Shown piece by piece: positions 4,557 to 38,380 of a stretch of DNA of 64,000 nt. The notes under the pieces are model-generated. The model did no database searches, was not told where the DNA came from, and saw nothing but the letters and a program-made list of their open reading frames with translations. Each line of letters begins with the position of its first letter. Positions within the stretch are counted from its first letter, which is position 1. The position numbers and the translations under genes are program-made. Origin of the DNA: Bifidobacterium thermophilum (GTDB lineage Bacteria > Actinomycetota > Actinomycetes > Actinomycetales > Bifidobacteriaceae); assembly GCA_000741495.1 (NCBI GenBank), contig JGZV01000001.1:1-64000 (forward strand). The letters run 5' to 3'.

Positions 4557-5926
4557 TCACTTTCCGGAAACAAACATCTTCTGCCACACCTGTTTGAGCA
4601 CATTCGACGTCAGTGATGCCGCCTGCTCTTTGGCCTGACCCTCGGTGAGCACCACCACGACGACTTTCTTCGAGCCGTTGGAAACCACCATGTAGTAATC
4701 GTAGGCGTCACCGACGCCCATGCCGCGATGTGCATGCACCGTTGCGCCATCAGGTACAACAACGCCATCCGATGCCAGGTTGTAGTTCAGTAGGCCATCC
4801 TCACCCTTGGCGATGAGCTGCGTCAACATTTTCGCGGCATCATCCGAGGATGTCGTGTTGTCATAACCGTTGTCGGAAGCATTCACGTCACCATAGAGGT
4901 GCCCGAAGCGAGTTTCGTCGTAATCATGGGCATTGAGCCAGCTGTTGAGCATATCCATACCGCCATCGCGGTCGATGAGCGCGTTCGCTTTGCCGTTGTC
5001 CATGGAGGACAGCACCGACTGATACCCGCCAGCGGGGCTTCCCCCAACCAGATCGTAATACGCGAGCCACGGCGGCAAGTACAGTCCTGCGGCACTCATC
5101 GAGTACGAGGCGTTGTTCGACGAATAGCTTTTCAAATTGTCGCTCGTCATCACCGATACCGCCGCACTACCAGACCCACTGTTATACGTGTCGACGATGG
5201 CGTCCATCACCTGCTTGTCCAGAACGCGGGACGCGGTGTCAGATGAAGCGGATCCGCTGGCCTTTGTGGCTGGGGATTTCTTGGGTTTCTTCCCGGCGTT
5301 CTTCTTCTTGCTACTGTTCGCGGTTGCACTCGACGTTACAGTTGCCGTCTGGGTCTGTGAATCCTTGGAATTATTGGATCGCCAAACCAGCACACCGGAA
5401 ATCACCAGCGCGACGGCAACGACAACAGCGACGATAATCAGCACGAAACGACGATTCTTGGCTTCCGTGTTGGTACTTGACATAGCGGCCGGATCGTCGG
5501 AATCCGCAGGGACCGGTGTCGGTGCGGCTGGGCTTGGGGGCGGAAGCACTGGAATCTGGATAGCTGAGTCGGCGACGCAGGTGCCGGCACAGAAGGCGTA
5601 GTCGCACCACCGGCAACCGGCGCCGGCACAGACGGTAACGGCACCGCAGACATCGGGAAAGCCGACATCACCGACGTCTGAGCCGCATCCTGATCAGACG
5701 ACCGTGTTACAGTACCCGGATCGACGTCAAGCGGTTTGCCGCACGCGGTGCAAAACCGTGACGACAGTTCATTGACAGCACCGCACGAAGAACATACGCG
5801 AACGTTCGTTTCCCCGGACGGTTGCGGAATCGATACCTCGCTTTGTGCAAGACTGCTCCCGCAACCGGTGCAGAACTTATCGTCGTCTTCATTCCACCGG
5901 CCGCAGATCATGCAGTGCTTCATCAT
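4557..5926 (-). pseudogene. Double zinc-ribbon protein with degenerate beta-lactamase-fold domain, frameshifted
   Basis: From the ATG at 5926 one frame encodes two zinc ribbons (CMICGRWNEDDDKFCTGC and CSSCGAVNELSSRFCTAC) and a Pro/Ala linker. Around 5540-5600 the sense passes to another frame: the upstream frame runs on as unlikely Arg/His-rich sequence to 5438, while the second frame continues from a similar Pro-rich linker into a transmembrane helix and a 200-residue outer domain ending at 4557. One missing base (or two extra) joins them. The outer domain aligns by eye with the neighbouring class A fold protein but lacks the SxxK lysine (SAAG) and has HRG for KTG, so it would be catalytically dead. 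It may be a live gene with a sequence error; each half looks under selection. Confidence 0.65.
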
Positions 5927-10481: not shown

Positions 10482-10649
10482 ATATCTGCTTTCGCTTTGT
10501 CCGTGGGATTAACTCCCGCGCACAATTGATATATATTACACACGGCGAGCAGATAAGCAAATCGAGTGGGCATTCGGCGTGTCGCCTTTGGTTTCAACGA
10601 GAATCGTCCTCAGTACGCCGATTACAAAGGCGCAACATCATGAAATAAA

Positions 10650-10692
10650 CCCGCCTGCGGTGTGACATCCAATCGCACCGCAGGCGGGTTTT
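10650..10692. terminator. Bidirectional terminator downstream of tsaD
   Basis: CCCGCCTGCGGTG (10650-10662) pairs with CACCGCAGGCGGG (10676-10688), a 13-bp perfect stem. TTTTCT follows on the plus strand and TTTATTTC on the minus strand. It probably ends the tsaE-tsaD transcript, which would make the palindrome array at 10729-11005 part of its 3' untranslated region. Confidence 0.8.
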
Positions 10693-10728
10693 CTCTGTAA
10701 ACCAACTGGATGAATCCAATGCCTGTCC

Positions 10729-11005
10729 TTGTGAGGACCCGCTCACACAACGGCCCATCCGGTGGCCGCAATCACCCATTTAGCCAAGCCACGCACCCAT
10801 CGTGTGAGGATTCACTCACACAACTACGGATAATCTGACCGGAATCAGCCTCTCGACCGGTCAATGCACATTCCATGCGAGGATTGGCTCGCACAGAGCC
10901 CTGCCACACAAGCAAGCCGAACAAGCCGAACGAGTCAATCTCCTAAGCCAATCCCCCAAGCCAAAGTCCCCACAGTTGTGAAAGTTGCGAGAATTCGCTC
11001 ACACA
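10729..11005. repeat. Array of four palindromes TGTGAG-N6-CTCACA, mostly 73-bp spaced
   Basis: Four copies of an 18-bp inverted repeat start at 10730 (TGTGAGGACCCGCTCACA), 10803 (TGTGAGGATTCACTCACA), 10876 (TGCGAGGATTGGCTCGCA) and 10986 (TGCGAGAATTCGCTCACA). Each is followed by CA. Start-to-start distances are 73, 73 and 110 bp. In the third copy both arms change together and keep the palindrome. The intervening sequences are unrelated. The last copy covers the stop codon of tsaD. Two more copies, again 73 bp apart, lie at 38288 and 38361. Confidence 0.8.
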
Positions 11006-12042
11006 CTGATGGTCGTCAGCGGCATGGCCGAGTCAATCGGGAAGTCCGGGTCGGACGGCTTGACTCCGGCCTCGACCAAATTCACACCAAGCATCGCGAC
11101 CATCGCCCCGTTGTCCGTGCACAGTTTGATCTGCGGGATACGCACTTGCACCCCGCAACGCTCCCCTTCCTCAAGCAACTTGGCCCGCAACTGGGAGTTC
11201 GCCGAAAAACCACCGCCGACGATCAGCGTCTTCGACCCGTATTGTTCGCATCCGTGCATTGCCTTTCGGGCCAACACGCTCGCCACGGAATCCGCCAACG
11301 ACGCGCACACGTCATCCACCGGGATGGCACGTCCTTCAGCCTGCTGCTCCTCGATCCACCGAGCGACAGCGGTTTTCACACCGGAGAAGCTGAAATCGTA
11401 CGGATGTTCCCGACCTGCCTTGCCTTGCGTCAACCCCTGGGGCACGCGGATGGCGTGCGGGTCGCCCTGTTGCGCGTGCCGGTCGATATGCGGGCCGCCG
11501 GGGTATGGGAATCCCAGCAATCGTGCGACCTTGTCGAAGCACTCCCCCGCCGCATCATCGAGCGTGGTGCCGACGACATCGATATGCCGCGCGACATCCT
11601 CGACATGCAGCAGTGACGTATGCCCGCCGGAAACAATCAGCGCGAGCGTGTCCGGCGGAAATGCGCCGAATTGCAGCTGCGTAACCGCAATATGCCCGAT
11701 GACATGATTGATACCGTAAATCGGTTTGTGCGCAGCCCATGCAAGCGCTTTGGCCCCGGAAACCCCGACGGCGAGGCATCCGGCGAGGCCTGGACCTGCG
11801 GACACGGCAATAGCGTCGACGTCGGAAAGCTCAAGCCCGGCATCTGCGAGCGCCTGTTGGACGCATGGGACGAAAGCTTCGGCGTGGGCGCGCGAGGCGA
11901 TTTCTGGGATGACACCGCCGTAGCGGGCGTGTTCGTTCATGGATGAGGCGACGACGTTGGACAGGAGGGTGCGGCCTTGGACGATGGCGGCTGCGGTTTC
12001 GTCGCAGGTGGATTCGATGCCGAGGACGATTGGCTGGTTCAT
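10999..12042 (-). CDS. tsaD: tRNA t6A threonylcarbamoyltransferase TsaD
   Basis: TsaD transfers the threonylcarbamoyl group from TC-AMP to A37 of ANN-decoding tRNAs, acting with TsaB and TsaE. The 347-residue length is usual. Family signatures are visible: the N-terminal GIESTCDETA ATPase-like motif, NEHARYGGVIPEIASRAH with metal-binding His, GHTSLLHV, and the C-terminal NGAMVA. It is the last gene of the tsaE-tsaB-rimI-tsaD run, 30 bp after rimI. Its stop codon overlaps a copy of the palindromic repeat. Confidence 0.95.
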   Translation of the reverse strand: MNQPIVLGIESTCDETAAAIVQGRTLLSNVVASSMNEHARYGGVIPEIASRAHAEAFVPCVQQALADAGLELSDVDAIAVSAGPGLAGCLAVGVSGAKALAWAAHKPIYGINHVIGHIAVTQLQFGAFPPDTLALIVSGGHTSLLHVEDVARHIDVVGTTLDDAAGECFDKVARLLGFPYPGGPHIDRHAQQGDPHAIRVPQGLTQGKAGREHPYDFSFSGVKTAVARWIEEQQAEGRAIPVDDVCASLADSVASVLARKAMHGCEQYGSKTLIVGGGFSANSQLRAKLLEEGERCGVQVRIPQIKLCTDNGAMVAMLGVNLVEAGVKPSDPDFPIDSAMPLTTISV

Positions 12043-38285: not shown

Positions 38286-38380
38286 TATGTGAGGATTCGC
38301 TCATACACCATGCCATCCAATGGCAACAATCAGCATTATTCACGAATCAGCTACCCACGGTGTGAGGAACGACTCACACA
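38286..38380. repeat. Second array of the TGTGAG-N6-CTCACA palindrome, 73-bp spacing
   Basis: Two copies start at 38288 (TGTGAGGATTCGCTCATA) and 38361 (TGTGAGGAACGACTCACA), exactly 73 bp apart, the same step as in the array at 10729-11005. The region lies between the start of the membrane-protein gene (38092) and the tRNA-Gln terminator (38487). No gene is seen in 38093-38486. Confidence 0.8.

Follow-up and report, generated by a model that had tools for sequence, protein, structure and literature searches.

What are the evenly set palindromes that lie between tsaD and a hairpin terminator in Bifidobacterium thermophilum? The earlier note on this locus described four 18-bp inverted repeats TGTGAG-N6-CTCACA at steps of 73, 73 and 110 bp and considered a multi-site operator, a structured 3' untranslated region or a small repeat family. 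All four palindromes are present at these steps in the window, the 64,000-nucleotide stretch of DNA analysed here (Table 1). With one mismatch allowed, the window contains six matches compared with 0.83 expected, a count reached by none of 100 shuffles. A second array of two units, which the earlier inventory had missed, lies at 38288-38378, with a tRNA gene about 200 bp away. Genome-wide, TGYGAG-N6-CTCRCA occurs in 76 exact copies compared with a single copy of the reversed-pattern control, and the palindromes thus form a genuine repeat family. The tsaD array is an ordinary member of it, with three phased units and one unit out of phase; in unit 4 only one arm is changed (TGCGAG...CTCACA).

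Both strands of the palindrome contain TGA, and it is unit 4 (10999-11003) that gives tsaD its stop codon. Gene ends overlap a unit in the same manner at three further loci (L013, L022 and L113). The TsaD protein of the window genome has its closest counterpart in B. boum (99%).

Table 1. Palindromic units, spacers and flanking features of the two arrays in the window
Feature	Position	Strand	Sequence or remark
Hairpin terminator beyond tsaD array	10649..10698	-	Strong; folded; T-rich on both strands
tsaD array, unit 1	10730..10747	+	TGTGAGGACCCGCTCACA; family A site
Spacer between units 1 and 2	10748..10802		55 bp; similar to equivalent B. apri spacer (step there 72)
tsaD array, unit 2	10803..10820	+	TGTGAGGATTCACTCACA
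Spacer between units 2 and 3	10821..10875		55 bp
tsaD array, unit 3	10876..10893	+	TGCGAGGATTGGCTCGCA; changes in both arms
tsaD array, unit 4	10986..11003	+	TGCGAGAATTCGCTCACA; 110 bp (10.5 turns) from unit 3; overlaps tsaD stop codon
tsaD, flanking gene	10999..12042	-	TGA stop inside unit 4
Second array, unit 1	38288..38305	+	TGTGAGGATTCGCTCATA; one mismatch
Second array, unit 2	38361..38378	+	TGTGAGGAACGACTCACA; step 73

Distribution and turnover of the arrays

Just 5 of 112 Bifidobacterium genomes hold more than three exact copies of the pattern. Besides the 76 in the window genome, there are 160 in B. apri (G008), 85 in B. boum (G014), 160 in B. thermophilum (G101) and six in B. minimum (G049). 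Paired copies occur in 8 of the 189 genomes of the family, namely in four species of the B. boum/thermophilum group (28-115 pairs each), two Pseudoscardovia-type genomes (G172 and G174), B. minimum and G132; G174, which belongs to another genus than Bifidobacterium, has 45 pairs, and the array of G172 recurs at identical coordinates in Pseudoscardovia radai. The motif is hence above chance, and the 73-bp step recurs at other loci and in other species, so that the search proposed in the earlier note upheld the element as real. As most Bifidobacterium species are entirely devoid of it, the element is not essential to the genus. In B. minimum the arrays (L070, 10.9-18.1 kb) flank a two-deaminase cassette (cytosine deaminase), a protein of which is 97% identical to one from a likewise array-flanked two-deaminase cassette of B. 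boum (L127). G132 carries, at two places, spacers and arrays near-identical to those of the deaminase cassette. Judged from these sequences, B. minimum and G132 look like recipients of a transferred block with arrays as its flanks. The pattern was not found in viral contigs, and a match in Paractinoplanes (L122) was judged to be unrelated, being a near-identical 71-bp tandem repeat with a different centre.

Of nine loci compared between the window genome and B. boum, eight are orthologous, and the differences between them amount to whole 73-bp units. Single units are easily lost; 12 of 101 groups are single-unit loci, and the largest arrays reach 12-14 units in a tolerant scan. Some spacers are homologous within or between arrays, especially in B. 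apri, and in 18% of spacer pairs from the same array the alignment score lies above the 99.9% level expected by chance. The view that the intervening DNA is unrelated therefore holds only in part, all the more as every spacer shares the helical composition described below. Arrays have probably grown by tandem duplication of units that later diverged, while selection maintained the sites and their spacing, as the sequence comparisons suggest.

The arrays occupy convergent, divergent and tandem gaps. Convergent gaps are enriched (20 of 62 compared with 29 of 220, p=0.001), in a count based on genes from a home-made caller that uses a simple codon score, with some orthologous loci entering from more than one species. 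An architectural or topological role would account for this excess better than an operator role would. The genes beside the arrays are of diverse kinds and include tsaD, smpB, a CHAP hydrolase gene, ftsX, prfB, dapD and cytosine deaminase. Since tens of loci adjoin such diverse genes, the tsaD array is unlikely to be a multi-site operator acting locally on tsaD.

Half-sites, helical spacing and phased composition

The 18-bp core TGTGAG-N6-CTCACA has a variable centre and variable arms and is bordered by weaker, degenerate outer flanks, part of which array-end units retain on their outer side too. Two families of sites can be told apart. Family A has the centre GATTCG and the flank CACAAtGgC and is dispersed. 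Family B has a CC-rich centre and the flank AACCAaC and is confined, in the window genome, to the smpB-CHAP-ftsX-prfB-dapD locus, the genes of which are found with family B arrays in the other three species too. B. apri has additional arrays intermediate between the two families. The family B cluster L007 (937-1834, 7348-8248 and 9542-10009; G000:C1 309-319 kb) comprises 13 units and then two further groups, and surrounds smpB, the CHAP hydrolase gene, ftsX, prfB, a DUF559-like gene and dapD in a local gene order unlike that of the outgroup genomes compared. The DUF559-type gene, found between family B arrays in all four species, was rejected as diagnostic, belonging to a broad genus-wide family. 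A position at the origin or terminus was likewise discarded, as in most complete relatives the distance between the family B locus and dnaA is about a quarter of the chromosome.

In the third copy of the tsaD array both arms are changed together, which had been taken as a sign of selection for pairing or for a symmetric protein site. Across 290 units, however, the third arm position is altered in both arms in three cases, in the left arm only in 25 and in the right arm only in 31, as expected for independence (z about 0), and the joint change loses its value as evidence of pairing. Because the core arms change independently, the palindrome fits two protein half-sites rather than a selected hairpin, and the symmetric protein site is likely. 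A seemingly strong covariation at dyad +/-4.5 stems from out-of-register TGTGTGAG matches, and covariation of the outer flanks largely reflects the two site families. The absence of covariation between the core arms speaks against the hairpin or RNA reading, and in the scanned loci Rfam gives tRNAs only. A structured 3' untranslated region likewise finds no support as a general function, given arrays in convergent, divergent and tandem gaps alike and a helical signal that resides in the DNA and not in pairing. At L014 (about 5017-5060) a perfect intrinsic terminator is built around one unit (GGCCCGCTG TGTGAG...CTCGCA CAGCGGGCC TTTTTT), which gives the impression of a co-opted palindrome.

The step between units averages 73.20 bp with a standard deviation of 0.61 bp (n=308, four species), corresponding to seven turns of 10.458 bp. 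In the deduplicated list it measures 72 (25 cases), 73 (198), 74 (76) or 75 bp (6), and other steps are frequently multiples (146, 147 and 221). The proposal that all copies face the same side of the DNA is thus borne out for the 73-bp steps (7.0 turns), in contrast to the 110-bp step of the tsaD array, which at 10.5 turns is half a turn out of phase. In G174, steps of 52, 125, 126 and 147 bp are also near whole turns, whereas those of 50 and 59 bp are not; a mosaic array of this genome (L194, 13043-15140) combines 73-bp steps with others of 52, 106 and 125-126 bp, most of them close to a whole number of turns. Related spacers of different species differ by 110 indels per 972 substitutions, and drift at this rate predicts a mean squared step difference of 2.3-9.1 after 20-80 substitutions. 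For spacers with unrelated interiors in one array the observed value is 0.64. As this falls short of the prediction, the spacing must be constrained.

The G+C content of the spacers oscillates with the helix, with AT-rich positions at the dyad plus multiples of 10.46 bp and a power about 60 times that of the null. Common ancestry of the spacers was rejected as the cause, as the signal persists in homology-free sets (24-34 spacers), with a period of 10-10.5 bp and an amplitude of 0.10-0.12 that none of 1000 shuffles (rotations) matched. In these sets G and C share their maxima, and so do A and T, half a turn apart from those of G and C, so that the oscillation represents a preference for a class of bases and not the imprint of one ancestral base. 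Both site families show it, as do small (2-3 units) and large arrays, and it is strongest in the middle of the spacer and continues in one phase through every unit. At a fixed period of 10.46 bp the phase is 173 degrees in the window genome, 165 in B. boum, 176 in B. apri, -163 in B. thermophilum and -174 in G174, within about 17 degrees of 180 in five genomes and two genera; G174 keeps this phase despite its other genus and its different outer flanks. Just outside the arrays no phased signal was found, either in a 'virtual spacer' (p=0.80) or from the array edges outward (p=0.46). An AT/GC signal recurring about once per turn marks the minor groove facing a protein, as for gyrase and nucleosomes (PMC6379681). 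The confinement of the phased signal to the DNA between neighbouring palindromes implies that this DNA is wrapped or tightly looped from site to site. The signal could have arisen from mutation bias on wrapped DNA instead of selection for bendability; either origin would imply a fixed path of the DNA in the cell.

Candidate explanations for the arrays

We propose, as the probable though by no means certain explanation, that each palindrome is occupied by a dimeric protein and that the intervening DNA wraps or loops tightly, so that a positioned nucleoprotein array forms at gene boundaries. A putative sequence-specific dimer would bind each palindrome over about 32 bp, including the weaker outer flanks. 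With sites every 7.0 helical turns, the bound dimers would come to lie on one face, and the DNA between adjacent sites would be bent, its minor groove turning to the inside once in every turn. The array would then be either a solenoid or a succession of 73-bp loops, specified by the sites together with the rotational signal between them, and its role would most likely lie in local chromosome architecture or topology at gene boundaries. We infer all three, the putative protein, the actual wrapping and the role. A special HU copy as the array protein was sought without success, the HU gene being single-copy in carriers and non-carriers alike. The single-unit loci, the easy loss of units, the out-of-phase unit 4 of the tsaD array and the lack of the element in most of the genus also weigh against the proposal.

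Alternatively, the arrays might be sites to which DNA gyrase binds with high affinity and, in function, counterparts of BIME-2 of Escherichia coli. Gyrase would then wrap the phased DNA and remove positive supercoils where genes end. The motif of gyrase comprises phased G+C arms with a period of 10.75 bp over 130 bp and AT facing the protein, and gyrase cuts are enriched at BIME-2 palindromes (PMC6379681). The arrays share with strong gyrase sites a G+C oscillation of about 10.5-10.75 bp with AT toward the protein, and their excess between convergent genes would suit such a function. However, the gyrase motif sets periodic arms on both sides of the cleavage site around a non-periodic 36-bp centre, an arrangement that the arrays do not show: their oscillation peaks in mid-spacer, is linked to a conserved palindrome at 73-bp intervals and is absent beyond the array ends, where the palindromes lack a periodic arm on their outer side. 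Moreover, gyrase occurs without arrays in most species of the genus. To our knowledge gyrase does not require a conserved 12-base palindrome either, and we regard this explanation as unlikely.

Rather improbable, too, are multi-site operators on which a tetrameric transcription regulator forms tight 73-bp loops and controls the adjacent genes as a regulon. The half-site TGTGAG is indeed that of the bifidobacterial LacI-type regulators AraQ/MalR1 (TGTGAGC><GCTCACA), and helical phasing strongly affects lac repressor loops of 57-155 bp (PMC1762422), which the arrays would resemble in their short, helically phased looping distances. Yet the half-sites are separated by six variable bp in the arrays compared with two in the AraQ motif, where they abut a central CG. 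Many arrays lie at 3' ends or between convergent genes, and their length of up to 12-14 units and their many loci beside diverse genes set them apart from LacI-type operators.

It is very improbable that the arrays are selfish REP-like palindromes, moved by a transposase and devoid of an architectural role. Like the BIME-2 arrays of REP palindromes in E. coli, they are intergenic, of high copy number, spread over many loci, variable by whole units and possibly linked to DNA topology, and their patchy occurrence across species would agree with mobility. On the other hand, the RAYT/Y1 transposase (Y1_Tnp, PF01797) is absent from carriers and non-carriers, in 14 of 14 genomes, and an empty site with a target duplication beside a solitary unit was found at none of the nine loci compared. 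Array positions are conserved between species, and unlike BIME-2 the arrays consist of half-sites without the arm covariation of hairpins. Mobility also leaves unexplained the fixed step of seven turns and the AT/GC phasing of spacers whose sequences are neither conserved nor homologous.

That the arrays are orphan or degenerate CRISPRs, repeats with captured spacers, is hardly credible: short repeats do alternate regularly with differing spacers, whole units are gained and lost, and an array of B. thermacidophilum subsp. porcinum with five repeats of TTGTGTGAGGATTTGCTCGCACA was once catalogued as an undetermined CRISPR lacking cas (PMC4521832), but there are tens of loci per genome, the repeats are degenerate around an 18-bp core with variable centre and arms instead of near-identical, many spacers are mutually homologous, orthologous spacers are conserved across species, and the spacers carry the helical composition. 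A source of spacers in mobile elements was rejected for the two arrays tested, one giving no match to phages and one none to plasmids. No cas-like genes were seen among the open reading frames read around the window array, and no association of the palindrome arrays with cas is known. CRISPR, REP/RAYT, gyrase site and LacI operator each lack at least one tested defining feature in the arrays.

A possible chromatin-like structure legible from sequence

The proposed nucleoprotein array recalls positioned DNA of another kind. Rotational AT/GC phasing over the bound stretch is a property of histone- or HU-bound positioned DNA and is found in the arrays, and as in nucleosome positioning sequences their AT and GC signals lie half a turn apart. 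In contrast to such sequences, the arrays are bacterial, their register is set by putative sequence-specific dimer sites, and no histone was identified. One superhelical turn of nucleosomal DNA comprises about 73 bp, a closeness to the array step that makes a solenoid physically plausible. A more specific and tentative form of the proposal, which we consider possible but doubtful, is a bacterial nucleosome-like array, in which a clade-specific dimer on palindromes every seven turns would wrap the DNA roughly once for each unit, building a regular solenoid and with it defined blocks of chromatin at gene boundaries.

The catalogue entry for B. thermacidophilum subsp. porcinum is the sole earlier trace of the arrays that we found in the open-access literature, where no description of the motif or of phased palindrome arrays was met with, suggesting that the sequence-coded, chromatin-like structure proposed for them is undescribed. 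If the proposal is true, the orphan-CRISPR reading of such arrays would have to be corrected. A regular chromatin-like structure would be encoded directly in the DNA, with both the sites and the rotational register legible from sequence alone. The arrays would then offer something rarely found in nature, a bacterial nucleoprotein complex whose DNA path can be predicted and tested at base-pair resolution.
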